Source of the DNA: a virus
Reading direction: 5' to 3' (one strand)
Length of the DNA stretch: 45,732 nt
Virus record (IMG/VR): IMGVR_UViG_3300050821_004160
Location: 1 to 45,732 of that record
Below, one piece after another: positions 15 through 27,678 of this stretch; position 1 is the stretch's first letter; every line of letters begins with the position of its first letter. The notes beneath the pieces were generated by a model that was given only the letters and a program-made list of their open reading frames with translations, was not told where the DNA came from and searched no databases. Both the position numbers and the translations under genes were made by a program.

Positions 15-1217
15 CGCTGTGGTGATAACTGTTGTCGTTGTCGTAACGCCTAGATCGGTTTTCCCGGCAACCGCAGCACCTATATTTCCGCTAAGCGTTA
101 CACTGCTAGAGAAAGTAGCAGTTCGCGAAGTTAGCACTAGCGCATTCTGCCCTTCTGCTATTATCGATGTCGGAAATCCCGTAAAACAGCCCATTTGAAA
201 CGTAGTGCCGCCGAATCCGAATCCTGAAGCTGAATTTAAATTAGATGAACACAGAAGAGAGAGAGGGCCCGCCGCTGTAGCGTATATGGTAAGGGGTACC
301 GTATTAATAGCCGATCCCGCACCGTATATAGTCAACGCAGAGCCATTCGCGGGGGTTCCAATGATATTGCTCCAAGCAAGATCCCCGCGCCAAAATTGGT
401 TGGGCGTGCTAGGGGTATTCTCTCTGCCCGGTGGCACTACAATGATGGGGTCATCGCTTAAATCGTCCGGAATCATGGTCTGCCCTGGCAGCCCCATAGC
501 CCCGGTTGAACCCGTGGTCCCCTGAATACCCGTCAGCCCGCGCAATCCTTGCGGCCCTATATCCCCATCTGCTCCGTCATCAGATGCTAGAAAGACAGCG
601 ACGCCTGCCAGCCCCGTGGCTCCTGCTGAACCTGTGGTACCCGTAGCCCCAGGGGTACCGGTGGGCCCCACAGGCCCCGGCGGTCCGCGCTCCCCTTCAT
701 CGCCTTGATCCGCTTCCAAAAACGTAGCAACGCCTGATAGCCCTTGCGCTCCAGTACCCGGCGGCCCCTGTGCTCCTGTCGGACCTATGGGCCCTACGGC
801 CCCAGGCGGCCCCGGATCGCCATCAGCACCGTCATCGGCAGATAGATAGGTCGCAGGACCTTGAGCCCCTGTGCCCCCAGTGGCGCCTGCTACCCCTGCT
901 TTGCCCGCAGCTCCTGGCGGCCCTGAATCACCATCAGCCCCGTCCTCCGTCCAAAAAACAGGGATAGGCGCTGTCAACCGAATAGGGACACTGCCGACAA
1001 GAGTACCGCCCCCGGCCAGCCCTGGGCCCAAGGCAATGGACGCCTCATCGCCGGTTCCGATATTGCCCCCACCCGTATTGGGCGGATTTTGCAATTGCGA
1101 AACGATCGCCGCGAGCTGCGCCAATGCCTCGGAGATGGTTGTCAGAATCGCATTATTGTTATCCGTTGTCCGGATGACCTTGCGAATACCGCCGATCGTG
1201 GGAGTTTGATATTTCAC
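1..1217 (-). CDS. Collagen-like phage tail/virion protein, N-terminal 405 codons (continues at 45732)
   Basis: Starts with GTG at 1217 in a GTGA overlap with the stop of the upstream gene, and reads to the left edge without a stop. Across the circle it continues at 45718 and ends at 45643, giving a 430-residue protein. Residues 1-60 are a non-collagenous, possibly coiled-coil head. Residues about 85-235 are Gly-X-Y tracts rich in GPPG, GPTG and GATG. Four related modules each begin with an aromatic/hydrophobic strand followed by acidic (D/E)DGxDG(D/E)xG. The C-terminal 190 residues are a beta-rich Ser/Thr/Ala/Gly domain. Collagen-like tracts form trimeric stalks in phage fibres and appendages, so a host-contact or virion-surface role is inferred. 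Receptor specificity is unknown. Confidence 0.85.
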   Translation of the reverse strand, partial: MKYQTPTIGGIRKVIRTTDNNNAILTTISEALAQLAAIVSQLQNPPNTGGGNIGTGDEASIALGPGLAGGGTLVGSVPIRLTAPIPVFWTEDGADGDSGPPGAAGKAGVAGATGGTGAQGPATYLSADDGADGDPGPPGAVGPIGPTGAQGPPGTGAQGLSGVATFLEADQGDEGERGPPGPVGPTGTPGATGTTGSAGATGLAGVAVFLASDDGADGDIGPQGLRGLTGIQGTTGSTGAMGLPGQTMIPDDLSDDPIIVVPPGRENTPSTPNQFWRGDLAWSNIIGTPANGSALTIYGAGSAINTVPLTIYATAAGPLSLLCSSNLNSASGFGFGGTTFQMGCFTGFPTSIIAEGQNALVLTSRTATFSSSVTLSGNIGAAVAGKTDLGVTTTTTVITTAGGIA

Positions 1218-4518: not shown

Positions 4519-5280
4519 TTATCCGTAAGGCAAATTGGGGTTGACGGTATTCGTAAATTCAGCGGAAGGCGCAGAGCTACCTACTTTAGGTGTCCACCCC
4601 GTATAGCTTCCGCCCGCATTCGTCGCATAAGCATTCGCTCCATTCTTGGCAAGCCCCGCGAAGAGTGAAACCCACGGATTCGCCTGTCCTGCGGTTTGCG
4701 CGCGAAGTTGATCCACAAAGTTCTGCGTATAGGATTGCGCTTGTAGCCCTTGAAGATTGGTCCCCAAGGTCTGCATCGCGAGCCCTTCATTCTGCCGCTG
4801 ACGCACGGCTGCATCTACCGCGCCCAATTCGCTTGCGTTGGTCTGCCCATAATCTTGTACGGATTTTTGCGACGTAGCCTTATCCGCGCCATATCGCGAA
4901 CTGCCGCCCGCCACAGGAGCCAATGCGGATACCGATTGCCCCCCATTCGTCGGATTCAAGTTGGTCGGACCGCCTTCGGTACTACCCGCAGCGTTCTTGC
5001 GTAACGTATCGACGAAAGCGCCCGTCTCCTGCCCCTGAATTTGTGCAGGCGTGTTCTGCCCAATTTGACTCGTGAGCGCTTTGATTTGAGCGTTCGCATT
5101 ACCGCGAATCTGATTTTGGTTCTGGATCGCCTGCACTTCGCTGGCGTTCTGCCGCGCATTGGCGTTGCTCTGATTAACGTACTGCGCGCCCGTGCCGACA
5201 GCCGCAAGCACTGCCGGCACCCAGAATTCCTCGGTACCACATGCTACCCGTTCGTGCCATAGCTTAGGAAGAAGGCTCAT
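4519..5280 (-). CDS. Asn/Gln-rich virion-associated protein
   Basis: A 253-aa protein starting in an ATGA overlap with the upstream 69-aa gene. After an N-terminal 30 residues with a hydrophobic patch (VPAVLAAVGTG) comes a long Asn/Gln/Ala-rich helical region (about 40-180) with coiled-coil character, then a Gly/Ser/Asn-rich tail ending NPNLPYG. Composition resembles the 205-aa gene at 5922, suggesting that both belong to the same inner-virion assembly. No enzymatic motif is visible. An alternative start further in cannot be excluded, but the ATGA junction favours this one. Confidence 0.7.
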   Translation of the reverse strand: MSLLPKLWHERVACGTEEFWVPAVLAAVGTGAQYVNQSNANARQNASEVQAIQNQNQIRGNANAQIKALTSQIGQNTPAQIQGQETGAFVDTLRKNAAGSTEGGPTNLNPTNGGQSVSALAPVAGGSSRYGADKATSQKSVQDYGQTNASELGAVDAAVRQRQNEGLAMQTLGTNLQGLQAQSYTQNFVDQLRAQTAGQANPWVSLFAGLAKNGANAYATNAGGSYTGWTPKVGSSAPSAEFTNTVNPNLPYG

Positions 5281-5921: not shown

Positions 5922-6539
5922 CTACCCTTGAAACGGACTCGCGCCGCCCGTCGTGCTGCCGCCATACAAACTCCCAATCGGCTGCTGTTGCGCCTTGCGG
6001 TTAGCCGCCGCTGTTTGTTCAGTCTGATAGATGTTGCCCGTACTCTGGAAGAGATTCCCCAATGCCGCCGGGTTAAACGCAGTCTGTGCATTGCCGAGCG
6101 CGGCACTCTGCGCCTGCGCGACTTGCGTCGGAATCGCCCCTGTATAATTCCCCTGCTGTGCCAAGCTGATCATTTGATTCTTGGCGTTGATATCCGCCTG
6201 CTGAAGTGCGGCTTTACCGCTCTGTGCTTGCTGCGACGCTTGGAGTAGCCCTTGCGTGTAGTCTTTTTGGAGCTGCGTATTGGAATCAACCGCTGCCGAG
6301 CCACCCGTCAATCCGCTTCGGGCACCCGCAAACTTCAAATTGCGGGCGTTGACCGCTTCCTGATTATTGACTTGCCCTGTGAGGTATTTGCCAAGATTTG
6401 CGCCATAGGCGTCGTATTGCGCTTGACGGGCAGGCGAATTAAACGCGTTATTGATCTGCCCAACCGATTGCTGAATCTGCTGCTGTTGCTGCTGATTCGC
6501 CGCATTGGCCGCATTGGCTGCGCTATTTCCTGTGCCCAC
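5922..6539 (-). CDS. Gln/Ala-rich helical inner virion protein
   Basis: A 205-aa protein with an N-terminal Ala/Asn/Gln run (including QQQQQQ at residues 17-22). A long heptad-like helical stretch follows to about residue 150, and a Gly/Ser tail ends GASPFQG. Similar Gln/Ala-rich helical proteins occupy the internal-virion-protein slot of podophages. It starts 2 bases after the gp13-like gene. Role as a DNA-ejection or core protein is inferred from composition and position. Confidence 0.7.
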   Translation of the reverse strand: MGTGNSAANAANAANQQQQQQIQQSVGQINNAFNSPARQAQYDAYGANLGKYLTGQVNNQEAVNARNLKFAGARSGLTGGSAAVDSNTQLQKDYTQGLLQASQQAQSGKAALQQADINAKNQMISLAQQGNYTGAIPTQVAQAQSAALGNAQTAFNPAALGNLFQSTGNIYQTEQTAAANRKAQQQPIGSLYGGSTTGGASPFQG

Positions 6540-23820: not shown

Positions 23821-23959
23821 CTATATTTGAGACAAAACGAGATAGCTACAAGCTGCCGGCTATGAGGTGTAGGCGCTCGCAACAAAGCCCCGGCTCGCTA
23901 CCAGAAGCTTACCTCCTGAAAAGGGCCCCCTACCCCTCGTCTAGAAATTTTATAAAATT

Positions 23960-24045
23960 GGCGCACCGCAACAATATCAAGCCCGCACTGCAGCAAAAAG
24001 ATGGCGCACCGCAACAATATCAAGCCCGCACTGCAGCAAAAAGAT
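23960..24045. repeat. 43-bp perfect tandem duplication
   Basis: Two adjacent identical copies, 23960-24002 and 24003-24045, beginning GGCGCACCGCAACAATATC and ending CTGCAGCAAAAAGAT. The unit length is not a multiple of three and no gene spans it. It is either a recent slippage duplication or a two-copy iteron in the control region. Confidence 0.95.
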
Positions 24046-24474: not shown

Positions 24475-24732
24475 ATGCTTTATCGAATCACGCGCCGCGC
24501 TAAACTGCTTAAAGATGGCGAACGGCTCATAGCCGCTATCAAGGCCGGCCGCAGCCCGCGCGACCTGCTATTAACCTTCTCCGGCAGCCGAGCGACGTTT
24601 TACAGAGCCATCAAAGCCGCATCTGTGAATGGTGCGTTGCCACGCGCCAATTACGGCCGCACACGGCGCGTAGCCCCCATCAGTGCTGACGATGATTCGC
24701 AGCCTGAATTGCGCGATCCATTATTGGAGTGA
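24475..24732 (+). CDS. Small putative DNA-binding protein, first early gene
   Basis: An 85-aa basic protein with GGAGG 5 bases before the ATG. Residues 25-48 (SPRDLLLTFSGSRATFYRAI) have the spacing of a helix-turn-helix, with ATFYRAIKAA as possible recognition helix. The C-terminus is acidic and ends PELRDPLLE, the tail type shared with TerS and SSB. As the first gene after the control region, with palindromic operators over its stop codon, it is a good candidate for an early regulator. No family match is claimed. Confidence 0.65.
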   Translation: MLYRITRRAKLLKDGERLIAAIKAGRSPRDLLLTFSGSRATFYRAIKAASVNGALPRANYGRTRRVAPISADDDSQPELRDPLLE

Positions 24733-24783
24733 CACAAATTGTCACAAAGTGACACAAGTGTCAGTTAGTGACAAAAATTGTCA
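24729..24783. promoter_or_regulatory. Three evenly spaced TGACA...TGTCA operators
   Basis: Palindromes GTGACA-N5-TGTCAC (24729-24745), TGACACAAGTGTCA (24750-24763) and TGACAAAAATTGTCA (24769-24783). Their centres are about 19.5 bases apart, i.e. two helical turns, so bound dimers would stack on one face. The first overlaps the stop codon of the preceding gene. Typical layout for cooperative repressor binding. Confidence 0.75.
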
Positions 24784-24820
24784 TGAGACATATTGAGATA
24801 TCAAGCAACCAACCGACTAC

Positions 24821-24871
24821 TGAGACAATTTGAGACTTGGCACGCGCAATGCATGTATCTAATTGTCTCAG
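24821..24871. repeat. TGAGAC motif pair and inverted partner
   Basis: TGAGAC at 24821 and 24831 (10 bp apart), plus GTCTCA at 24865. The outer arms form CTGAGACAATT (24820-24830) and AATTGTCTCAG (24861-24871), an 11-bp inverted repeat just before the ribosome-binding site of the 62-aa gene. The same 10-bp-phased pair occurs at 24071/24081, and single copies are at 23828 and 24784. Confidence 0.65.
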
Positions 24872-24892
24872 TTAACCAGGAGCAAAGAGCCA

Positions 24893-25081
24893 ATGATCTA
24901 CCGCAACTATTGGACAATGATGACTAGTGAGGATTACGACATCATGTATCGCAAGGGCACTTCACACCGCGATATCTACAAAGCGTGCGATACGCTTGAC
25001 GCTGGCACCATGAATTTACTCACTCGCTTGGCGCAGGGCGCTTATTCCAGCGTCGCCGCCCGTTGCGTAACTGAAGAATAG
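24893..25081 (+). CDS. Small early protein of unknown function (62 aa)
   Basis: A 62-aa protein (MIYRNYWTMMTSEDYDIMYR...) with a CAGGAGCAAAGAGCC leader that is repeated almost exactly before the gene at 26343. No motif recognised; helical and mixed charge. The covarying RNA hairpin A begins at its stop codon. Probably an early host-takeover or regulatory protein, by position only. Confidence 0.6.
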   Translation: MIYRNYWTMMTSEDYDIMYRKGTSHRDIYKACDTLDAGTMNLLTRLAQGAYSSVAARCVTEE

Positions 25082-25136
25082 ATTTCAGCCTGTAGCATCT
25101 GCTAACGCGGATGCTATGGGGTGCAATCTCGCATCA
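25081..25136 (+). ncRNA. Structured intergenic RNA element, copy A
   Basis: Begins at the stop codon of the 62-aa gene. A 14-bp stem (25089-25102 with 25107-25120, three G-U pairs) is closed by the loop UAAC (25103-25106). It is followed by an AATCTC loop between GTGC and GCAT (25121-25134). Compared with copy B it differs at two paired positions with matching changes on the other arm, and in the loop by A to C. No T-run follows, so it is not a simple terminator. Confidence 0.75.
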
Positions 25137-25176
25137 CTGACGCGCACCAGGTGTTGCGCAACGTTAGGAGAATTCT

Positions 25177-26268
25177 ATGGAACTCATGCAAGCTAATCAC
25201 CAATGGGCCAACCGCCCCGACGATCAGCGCTTCCTGTCGCTGATCGAATTGAACGATCACATGCAACTGCTGCGCAGCAGGTCAGCGGCAAAGATCGTCA
25301 GCTCCCGCGCGCTCACCGCGCATCCCGTCGAAGGCGATAGCGAAGCGCTCATGCTCACGGGCCCAAACGGCGCTCCGGTCAATATCACCAATTGGTCGTT
25401 TGGCCAGCTCGCACAGCGCGCAGGTGCGCCGGCTGGATACCTTCGCGATATCCCGACCGCGCTGGCAGCCGACTGCTTGAACTACGGGCTACATCATGCA
25501 CGTGATGTCGAAAGCTGCGGCGTGCTACTCACCAAGCTGGAAGAGACTGCCACGGCTCGCGCAGTCACGGGACCGAACTACGGCCGCATTTGGAATGCGA
25601 CCATAACGGCCGCATTGGTCAAGCAGTTTGGCGACGGCGTCACGGGCAAGTTCCGCGTGCCGGGAGAATTCGGCGTGCAGGGCAACCCCATCACCAAACA
25701 ATCGACTACGCTGTATGGCTCCGATCGCGATATGTGGGTTTTTCTCGCCGATGAGGTGAATCGGATTGAGCTGCCCAACCGGCGCAACGGCCGTAGCGGC
25801 TCACTGGCGCGCGGATTCTTTGCGAGCAATTCGGAGGTGGGCGCCAGCACATTCATTCTAGGGCAGTTCCTGTTTGACTACATGTGCGGCAACCATATCA
25901 TCTGGGGTGTGGAGCAGTTCCAGGAGCTGCGCATACGGCACACGGCAGGCGCACCGGACAAGTACCTGGAACAGGCAGCCCCTGCGATCCTGGCCATGTC
26001 CAATGCATCGACAGGCGGTATGGTGGATATGTTGAAAGCCGCACAGGCCAAGAAGGTTGAGAATGTGGACGAATTCTTGAACCATCGGTTCTCGAAGTCC
26101 CAGACGTCGGCCATCAAGGCGGCGCATATGGCCGATGAGCAACGGCCGATAGAGTCTCTGTGGGACGTATCCACGGGCATCACGGCGTATGCTCGCAATA
26201 TCCAGCATACGGATGACCGCGTGAAGTTGGAACGCGAAGCGGGTAAGGTGCTGAAGCTGGCCGCGTAG
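25177..26268 (+). CDS. DUF932-family phage/plasmid protein
   Basis: A 363-aa protein of the DUF932 type common in phages and plasmids: N-terminal SFGQLAQRAGAPAGYLRDIP, central LLTKLEETATARAVTGPNYGR and ASTFILGQFLFDYMCGNHII, and a helical C-terminus. The biochemical role of the family is not established. Start supported by TTAGGAG 7 bases upstream. It is flanked on both sides by the same covarying RNA hairpin, suggesting that it is regulated or processed as a separate cistron within the early transcript. Confidence 0.8.
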   Translation: MELMQANHQWANRPDDQRFLSLIELNDHMQLLRSRSAAKIVSSRALTAHPVEGDSEALMLTGPNGAPVNITNWSFGQLAQRAGAPAGYLRDIPTALAADCLNYGLHHARDVESCGVLLTKLEETATARAVTGPNYGRIWNATITAALVKQFGDGVTGKFRVPGEFGVQGNPITKQSTTLYGSDRDMWVFLADEVNRIELPNRRNGRSGSLARGFFASNSEVGASTFILGQFLFDYMCGNHIIWGVEQFQELRIRHTAGAPDKYLEQAAPAILAMSNASTGGMVDMLKAAQAKKVENVDEFLNHRFSKSQTSAIKAAHMADEQRPIESLWDVSTGITAYARNIQHTDDRVKLEREAGKVLKLAA

Positions 26269-26270
26269 CT

Positions 26271-26326
26271 GATTGCAGCCTGTAGCGACTGCTCACGCGG
26301 TCGCTATGGGGTGCAATCTCGCATCA
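26271..26326 (+). ncRNA. Structured intergenic RNA element, copy B
   Basis: Starts 3 bases after the DUF932 stop. It has the same 14-bp stem geometry as copy A, with TAGCGAC (26283-26289) pairing with GTCGCTA (26300-26306) and loop UCAC. Fifty of 56 bases match copy A. Four of the six differences form two compensated base pairs, and a fifth keeps the UMAC loop class. It ends just before the AGGAG site of the next gene. Confidence 0.75.
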
Positions 26327-26342: not shown

Positions 26343-26525
26343 ATGACACGCAAAGACTACATTCTCATCGCACGCGTTTGCGCGGAAGCCCGCGTAGCAG
26401 TTCGAGAATACAAAGAACCCGTCTACGCGATCGATACCCTAACGTTTAAATTGGCGGATATGCTGGCGGTCGATAATCCCCGGTTTGATCGGCAGCGTTT
26501 CCTTGTCGCGTGTGCAGCAACATGA
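26343..26525 (+). CDS. Small early phage protein (60 aa)
   Basis: A 60-aa protein of a widespread phage type: starts MTRKDYILIARV and ends FDRQRFLVACAAT, the common pattern '(T/K)KDY.LIA ... FDR.RFL.AC'. Function unknown in the family. The leader CAGGAGCAAAGAGCC is shared with the gene at 24893. First gene of a four-gene overlap chain (ATGA at 26522). Confidence 0.7.
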   Translation: MTRKDYILIARVCAEARVAVREYKEPVYAIDTLTFKLADMLAVDNPRFDRQRFLVACAAT

Positions 26526-26892: not shown

Positions 26893-27005
26893 GCATCCGC
26901 CGATATCAAGGCTATTGGACCGTGTTTGTCCAGGAGCAACCCGTCATTCAATGCGTCGATTTCGCGTCCGCTTGGGCCAAAATCTGGGAAATTTGCAATC
27001 ATTGA
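26889..27005 (+). CDS. 38-aa micro-ORF at the end of an overlap chain
   Basis: A short ORF (MSIRRYQGYWTVFVQEQPVI...) whose ATG lies in the preceding stop (ATGA). It is rich in aromatic residues (six Trp/Tyr/Phe in the first 20 plus two Trp later). The decayed third copy of the RNA hairpin begins at its stop. Supported only by the junction and codon-like composition. Confidence 0.5.
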   Translation: MSIRRYQGYWTVFVQEQPVIQCVDFASAWAKIWEICNH

Positions 27006-27029
27006 TTCCCGCCTGTAGCATATGCTCAC
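27004..27029 (+). ncRNA. Truncated third copy of the intergenic RNA element
   Basis: GATT...GCCTGTAGCATATGCTCAC matches the 5' half of copies A and B (17 of 19 in the last part) and again starts at a gene stop. The 3' arm is missing; the sequence passes directly into TAATAAGGA, the ribosome-binding region of the next gene. Probably a decayed copy. Confidence 0.5.
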
Positions 27030-27048: not shown

Positions 27049-27678
27049 ATGACAAACAAATATGAATTTACCGGCGAAGTAAAAGTAGTTTTTGGCATTA
27101 CCTTAAGACAAATTCGCGCGCTCGTTAGCTTTGGAGTAGTAACCAAAGGCGACATTGGCGGATGGATAGAATCGGAAAATAACTTATCGCAGGTGGCTGG
27201 CAACGCGTGGGTGTATGGCGACGCGCAGGTGTATGGCGACGCGTGGGTGTCTGGCAACGCGTGGGTGTTTGGCAACGCGCAGGTGTCTGGCAACGCGCAG
27301 GTGTCTGGCAACGCGTGGGTGTATGGCGACGCGCGGGTGTATGGCGACGCGTGGGTGTCTGGCAACGCGTGGGTGTTTGGCAACGCGCAGGTGTCTGGCA
27401 ACGCGCGGGTGTATGGCAACGCGCGGGTGTATGGCGACGCGCGGGTGTATGGCAACGCGTCTTTTCTATTGGTAGGGCCCATCGGCTCACGTCGAGCGTT
27501 TCTTACTGTGACAGCCGATGCCAAAATCAAAGTGCGATTCTCTACAGGCTGCTTTAGCGGGGATCTTGAGACGTTCAAAGCCGCCATCAAAGCAACACAC
27601 GGTGAAGGATCTTTATTCGCATGCCAATATGCGGCGGCAATTGAGTTAGCCGCCATCTGCATCAAGGAGCCACAATGA
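27049..27678 (+). CDS. Tandem hexapeptide-repeat (beta-helix) protein
   Basis: A 209-aa protein. Residues 53-136 are 14 consecutive hexapeptides of consensus A(W/Q/R)V(Y/S/F)G(N/D), the signature of a left-handed beta-helix in which six residues form one side of each coil. The N-terminal 52 residues (FTGEVKVVFGITLRQIRALV...) and C-terminal 70 residues (with FSTGCFSGDLETFKAAIKAT) form caps. Such proteins occur widely in phages and as polymer-forming or decoy-like proteins; the role here is unknown. The repeat DNA is nearly identical between units, so copy number may vary between isolates. Confidence 0.85.
   Translation: MTNKYEFTGEVKVVFGITLRQIRALVSFGVVTKGDIGGWIESENNLSQVAGNAWVYGDAQVYGDAWVSGNAWVFGNAQVSGNAQVSGNAWVYGDARVYGDAWVSGNAWVFGNAQVSGNARVYGNARVYGDARVYGNASFLLVGPIGSRRAFLTVTADAKIKVRFSTGCFSGDLETFKAAIKATHGEGSLFACQYAAAIELAAICIKEPQ
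27205..27456 (+). repeat. 14 x 18-bp in-frame tandem repeat with 108-bp higher-order unit
   Basis: Fourteen 18-bp units of type GCGTGGGTGTATGGCGAC. Units 1-6 and 7-12 form a higher-order 108-bp duplication (protein order: WVYGD, xVYGD, WVSGN, WVFGN, QVSGN). All six frames stay open through the array, so the long antisense frames here are by-products of the repeat. Confidence 0.95.

Follow-up and report, generated by a model that had tools for sequence, protein, structure and literature searches.

Covarying three-helix RNA elements behind phage stop codons and their possible role at cistron borders

A family of RNA elements with three helices (P1, P2, and P3) was found between the cistrons of more than 50 metagenomic viral contigs from about 19 phage groups, which comprise both tailed and filamentous phages. 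The fold is well supported across these carriers, and its strong covariation makes it a candidate new RNA family. Judged from position, the best explanation is an intercistronic element that stabilizes or processes mRNA, a function that we put forward tentatively.

The window, that is, the whole stretch of DNA analyzed, is a 45,732-base IMG/VR viral record. A sequence-only reading of it had described two 56-nt repeats flanking a DUF932 gene, and these were recovered at 25081–25136 and 26271–26326 with 89% identity. Copy 1 starts on the final G of the TAG stop codon at 25079–25081, and copy 2 starts 3 nt past the TAG at 26266–26268. All six reported differences were present: two compensated pairs (A-U to G-C and U-A to A-U), a loop change between UAAC and UCAC, and, as the sixth, a T-to-G change by which copy 2 gains a complete outer pair. 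Compared with dinucleotide shuffles, the folds gave z = -5.7 for copy 1 and z = -7.3 for copy 2, and 0 of 200 shuffles equaled them. Both copies proved intergenic, which disposes of the alternative that they are part of a coding sequence. The 14-bp hairpin that had been taken as the unit is real, but it forms only the middle of the element. Three parts were absent from the earlier description: an outer helix, which in copy 2 is GATTGCA/TGCAATC; a second hairpin with the sequence GGUGC...GCAUC; and a pairing between the loop of this hairpin and the strand next to the stop codon. The features of the locus are as follows.

24863–25081, plus strand: small ORF ending at copy 1; the real start may be the ATG at 24893
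25078–25135, plus strand: element copy 1, whole model span, between the small ORF and the DUF932 gene; R1 70.2 bits, E 2e-13; z -5.7
25081–25084, plus strand: copy 1 P1 5' strand GATT, sharing its G with the end of the TAG stop; complementary to 25125–25128; covered by the P1 permutation test
25089–25120, plus strand: copy 1 P2 hairpin, 14 pairs (25089–25102 with 25107–25120), loop TAAC
25121–25134, plus strand: copy 1 P3 hairpin, GTGC 25121–25124 with GCAT 25131–25134; the loop contains the P1 3' strand AATC 25125–25128
25177–26268, plus strand: gene for a DUF932-like protein (phrog_1362) of 363 aa, bracketed by both copies; phrog_1362 E 9e-43, PF06067 E 0.011, below cut-off
26268–26325, plus strand: element copy 2, whole model span, between the DUF932 gene and the next small gene; R1 68.3 bits, E 6e-13; z -7.3
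26271–26274, plus strand: copy 2 P1 5' strand GATT, complementary to 26315–26318
26279–26310, plus strand: copy 2 P2 hairpin, 14 pairs (26279–26292 with 26297–26310), loop TCAC
26311–26324, plus strand: copy 2 P3 hairpin, GTGC 26311–26314 with GCAT 26321–26324; the loop contains AATC 26315–26318
26343–26525, plus strand: small ORF with its start 17 nt past copy 2 and an AGGAG ribosome-binding site
27001–27029, plus strand: 5'-half remnant of a third copy, lacking the P2 3' strand and P3; 83% over 29 nt, no fold

The remnant, previously noted as a decayed copy near 27004–27029, likewise lies directly after a stop codon and has lost its fold (z = +0.8). It is adjoined by an ORF (27049–27678) with fifteen in-register 18-nt repeats of six residues each at 27134–27514, which encode a beta-solenoid protein (PF18836, YdcK type). 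The translated ORF at 24893–25078 matched no protein family, and no tRNA was found in the whole window. Just 5' of the element-bearing operon, clustered palindromes at 24730–24785 (TGACAC-N-GTGTCA and TGACA...TGTCA) are operator- or iteron-like. Near the start of the region that separates the minus-strand and plus-strand gene blocks, a 43-nt stretch is directly duplicated in tandem at 23954–24039 (95% identical).

Relatives were collected by pattern and model searches. A pattern made from the two window copies led to nine further viral contigs, and a looser one to 41 stretches, in nearly all of which the inner stem differs yet stays complementary between constant bases. Three further scans added true members amid many chance matches. 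The matches L075, L081, L083, and L085 were rejected as chance on account of poor pairing or coding context, and L094 was also treated as chance. The covariance-model search that had been proposed as a check was carried out with model R1, built from 29 sequences. It matched 72 times in the loci of the first set and 75 times in a set that was enlarged and chosen; a few of these matches were reverse-strand shadows. Such matches, lying on the reverse strand at the same places, were left out as shadows of the palindrome. With these removed and the copies seen only in the first set added, the set used for context held 79 copies, some of them in near-identical contigs. Each carrier contig holds one to four copies. 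The first carriers fell into 12 groups by the proteins common to the compared loci; after later finds, 19 groups, assigned partly by eye, were used for statistics. The carrier groups are a small minority of IMG/VR. A sequence-free descriptor of the three helices was discarded because reversed sequence gave about as many matches as real sequence.

The conserved parts are the stem foot, a CAG linker, and the second hairpin. P2 is a long stem with CCUGUAG...CUAYGGG at its conserved base, preceded by CAG, and with a variable upper part. P3 is the second hairpin, GRUGC...GCAYC, and P1 consists of about 4–7 bases that start at the stop codon or shortly behind it and pair with the P3 loop. The UMAC tetraloop, earlier regarded as a class feature, did not hold up, since apical loop sequence and length vary freely across the family. 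In the MAFFT alignment A2 of 29 sequences, trimmed to the element, pairing reached 93.3% of cells versus 77.1% when shuffled, and covariation was 0.433 versus 0.147, with slid versions at 0.090 or less. In alignment A5, 94.7% of cells pair, 15 of 18 pairs changed on both sides, and covariation was 0.487 versus 0.181 (slid versions 0.131 or less), counts that lean toward P2 and P3 because A5 was fitted to the model for those helices. P1 lies outside the covariance model and was tested by permuting P3 loops among members. This gave z = 9.4 for 62 members and a mean z of 4.4 (3.3–5.7) with one member per group, while the reversed-strand control gave z = -0.6.

The P2 foot is nearly invariant. Its UAG:CUA deviates on both sides in L095 copy 2, L101, L121, the L144 group, and L161; the U-G at P2 position 3 is retained in 65 of 75 rows, followed in most by G-Y. 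Paired cells amounted to 95.7% in the sense direction versus 79.7% in antisense, which indicates that selection acts on the RNA strand. The opposite strand of both window copies folds clearly weaker because the G-U pairs turn into mismatches. Covariation and strand asymmetry support the earlier proposal of a selected RNA structure, which acts on the sense strand.

Nearly all conserved bases are helical, and CAG is the only conserved unpaired stretch. This bears on a self-cleaving ribozyme that would yield monocistronic mRNAs. Small ribozymes are known in phages, and the element is compact, possibly pseudoknotted, and intergenic; however, conserved bases of such a kind and the lack of a match to any Rfam ribozyme make this the least probable of the readings considered. 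In nested energy models, an extended P1-P2 hairpin was preferred over P2 plus P3, a result that rests on single rows and minimum free energies, the P2 and P2+P3 means having been dropped because some rows contained infeasible structures. Simultaneous formation of P1 and P3 would require a pseudoknot; without one, the two helices would be alternatives, P1 then extending the P2 stem.

In 51 of 66 members, P2 begins 5–11 nt behind the stop codon of a frame that is open for 45 codons or more, versus 4.4% of random positions. The next start is mostly 17–36 nt beyond P3, and the ribosome-binding site falls outside the fold. The stable fold that lies directly past the stop codon within an operon agrees with an intercistronic mRNA stabilizer. 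A terminating ribosome spans about 10 nt beyond the stop codon, as toeprints show, so that P2 would lie just outside its footprint and the P1 5' strand would be covered. The element could also be a ribosome-sensing switch. A ribosome positioned on the stop codon would then occlude the P1 5' strand and drive the RNA from the extended P1-P2 rod into P2 plus P3, affecting decay, re-initiation, or transcription. P1 starts on the stop codon or no more than a few bases from it, its extension competes with P3 in nested folds, and both covary, all of which agrees with such a switch. We consider it improbable, as P1 and P3 may coexist as a pseudoknot and as locus L022, if functional at all, does without P3.

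Two further interpretations of the position were rejected. An intrinsic terminator was discarded because TTTT occurs within 12 nt past P3 in 2 of 66 cases (T fraction 0.20); no U-run follows the window copies, and the earlier dismissal of an ordinary terminator stands. Stop-codon readthrough was discarded because over half of 49 frames run into a further stop within 10 codons. The element of L062 may end a transcript unit; a promoter-like sequence (TTGACG-N18-TAAACT, 424–506, minus strand) lies there between the element and the next gene.

The neighboring genes were then compared. Among pairs of copies with homologous neighbors, only the upstream gene was common 25 times and only the downstream gene 29 times. 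Recurrent neighbors, sometimes with copies on both sides, are genes for sliding clamps (clamp-like in several groups; PF02767 at its cut-off, phrog_947), DUF932 proteins in independent groups, and the SSB (phrog_2866) and coat (PF05356, phrog_6548) of filamentous phages. The L121 protein matched PF06067 (E 7e-58) and TIGR03299, and the element again follows the DUF932/TIGR03299 genes of the unrelated phages L121 and L144. DUF932 as an obligatory partner was rejected, phrog_1362 being present in only 3 of 30 carrier records, many of which are fragments. The compared loci revealed no protein family common to all carrier groups, which points to host machinery, although most records are fragments. 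The bracketed single genes may be of kinds needed in quantity, where the abundance of clamp-like and DUF932 proteins is assumed from relatives.

These neighborhoods bear on whether the element serves in the 5' UTR of the gene behind it, as a translation enhancer, a standby site, or a regulated leader to which a protein of the phage or host binds. A gene always follows the element, and in the filamentous L078, L082, L093, L095, and L130 that gene encodes the coat despite differing upstream genes. Ties to the upstream gene are, however, equally frequent, the ribosome-binding site is outside the fold, the compared loci offered no protein family common to all carrier groups, and the promoter-like sequence of L062 separates element and gene. 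We regard a 5' UTR function as quite unlikely. Slightly more weight, still that of an unlikely reading, is given to an endonucleolytic processing site at which host RNase III or RNase E cuts the element and frees separate mRNAs. The extended P1-P2 rod of about 20 pairs with inner mismatches and the location between cistrons, flanking single genes on both sides, would suit such cleavage, but it leaves the conserved, covarying P3 unexplained, and T7 is without any model match.

DUF932 homologs allowed a syntenic check. In phages with related DUF932 genes (L012, L018, and L011/L017), the upstream copy is kept with compensatory changes; a loss of complementarity in homologs, which would have spoken against the structure, was not seen in those phages that keep the element. 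Downstream of the DUF932 gene, L016 retains the three helices with other letters, and L022, whose protein is 90% identical, has a longer plain hairpin without P3. Where DUF932 homologs are free of the element, the same gap usually has another strong, unrelated hairpin, behind which a T-run sometimes lies. Over 39 loci, the 70 nt that follow the DUF932 stop had a mean z of -3.0, with 25 below -2. The gap thus seems to need a hairpin, and the element family appears to be one conserved way of providing it. Two other hairpin arrangements were observed beside DUF932-type genes. In L029 (about 6081–6135), the post-stop GTCTCCT pairs with AGGAGAT, the ribosome-binding site of the next gene, possibly as a translational switch. 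In L056 (about 4860–5000 and 6100–6165), the hairpins flanking the gene have GCGTCATGCCCGGG...CCCGGGCATGGCGATG in common and allow the same P1/P3 pairing in a different sequence; they were missed by models R1 and R2 and possibly represent a second subfamily.

Searches beyond the carriers gave few matches. Among 84,980 species with one genome each, the pattern found two stretches, of which only L095, a contig of a Burkholderiaceae MAG with filamentous-phage genes, was true. In samples of 201, 398, and 369 genomes from the family, phylum, and class of L095, the covariance model matched only the L095 genome; these searches used stricter filters, and the samples overlap slightly and together exceed 900 Pseudomonadota genomes. 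A single phage-like insert among the sampled bacterial genomes indicates that the element is essentially a virus feature. A REP/RAYT element was rejected on these results, as the species genomes held one true contig, in place of the many near-identical chromosomal copies typical of such elements, and the model samples added none. In blastn, neither 50,697 phage records, queried with the locus or element, nor 72,556 plasmids, queried with the element, returned a credible relative, and no cultured phage with the element was found in the phage collection, which was searched by similarity. Erythrobacter ZS04, Synechococcus S-ESS1, and Caulobacter RW, cultured relatives by protein or distant DNA, showed no model match. 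In Rfam 15, no family reached gathering in the window, none matched at E up to 1 at the locus, and none matched the elements of 11 other loci. No account of the motif was found in the open-access literature, with subscription papers and preprints outside the scope. The family is apparently uncatalogued; a survey reportedly covering structured RNAs in human microbiomes and another said to report 104 motifs were compared as far as they are in Rfam.

The absence of host copies, the structured nature of the element, its several copies along early-type operons, and the lack of an obvious protein partner would also suit an element that acts on RNA polymerase in transcription antitermination or pausing, as the put RNA of HK022 does. 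Such action does not require a border position right after stop codons, and HK022 is without a model match (R2 against its genome, none at E up to 5), on which ground put was rejected; we regard antitermination in general as highly improbable.

We infer that the evidence fits mRNA processing or stability at cistron borders better than a terminator, REP, readthrough, put, or a ribozyme. Counted for it were the covarying P1, P2, and P3, the better pairing of the sense strand, the placement at stop codons, the bracketing of genes, the ties to either neighbor, the other hairpins in element-free DUF932 gaps, and the plain long hairpin of L022. The fold occupies the short gap from the stop codon to the next ribosome-binding site; in the proposed mechanism, it would mark a cistron border in a polycistronic phage mRNA. 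P2, beyond the footprint of the terminating ribosome, would not be melted by translation, and the fold would stop 3'-to-5' exonucleases from reaching the upstream cistron, protect the 5' side of the downstream cistron following endonucleolytic cleavage, or both. Bracketed genes would thereby gain their own stability and yield, and the element probably sets the yield of each neighboring protein. The wobble-bearing P2 foot and the CAG linker would most likely contact a host ribonuclease or RNA-binding factor, or form a tertiary contact that stiffens the fold. The conserved P2 foot and P3 exceed what a generic exonuclease barrier needs, so that a specific partner or another function is possible. 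A role in processing or cistron-specific stability, suggested by the sequence-only reading, remains the leading idea. That the elements form a new pseudoknotted class of viral RNA, common to tailed and filamentous phages and capping single cistrons, for example as the bacterial-virus equivalent of exonuclease-resistant RNAs or as a switch that senses ribosomes on the stop codon, is possible but doubtful.

Phage transcripts combine genes needed in very different amounts. If the border role is true, part of phage expression control would be explained by a small portable fold that unrelated phages use next to their clamp, SSB, and coat genes, and the fold would offer a compact element for tuning bacterial expression.

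Several known systems are close. REP/RAYT palindromes (REP in general: PMC12306157) are likewise intergenic, imperfectly palindromic, and have GTAG near the foot. In contrast to them, the phage element is virus-specific, has one sense, depends on G-U pairs, and has stems that differ among the copies of one genome. It shares with the put RNA of HK022, a cis-acting phage RNA with two hairpins, this general design, but differs in operon position, in the P1 pairing, and in the absence of a model match in HK022. Viral exonuclease-resistant RNAs are small pseudoknotted folds that border a stable RNA segment, as the element, with its putative pseudoknot and resistance, would be; no sequence or Rfam match links the two, and bacterial RNA decay proceeds 3' to 5'. 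The early mRNA of T7 has RNase III sites between cistrons, and these too are repeated intercistronic hairpins around phage genes. Shape and position are compatible with a putative cleavage here, whereas the covarying P3 and P1 set the element apart from the T7 sites, to which the model found no match. The REP hairpin of malE-malF and the hairpins of the puf operon are intercistronic mRNA-stabilizing stem-loops, similarly located right behind a stop codon within an operon, where they separate the stability of cistrons. Unlike these, the phage element combines a foot of conserved sequence with a second hairpin and a pairing of the pseudoknot type, and it is common to unrelated phages and nearly absent from bacterial chromosomes.
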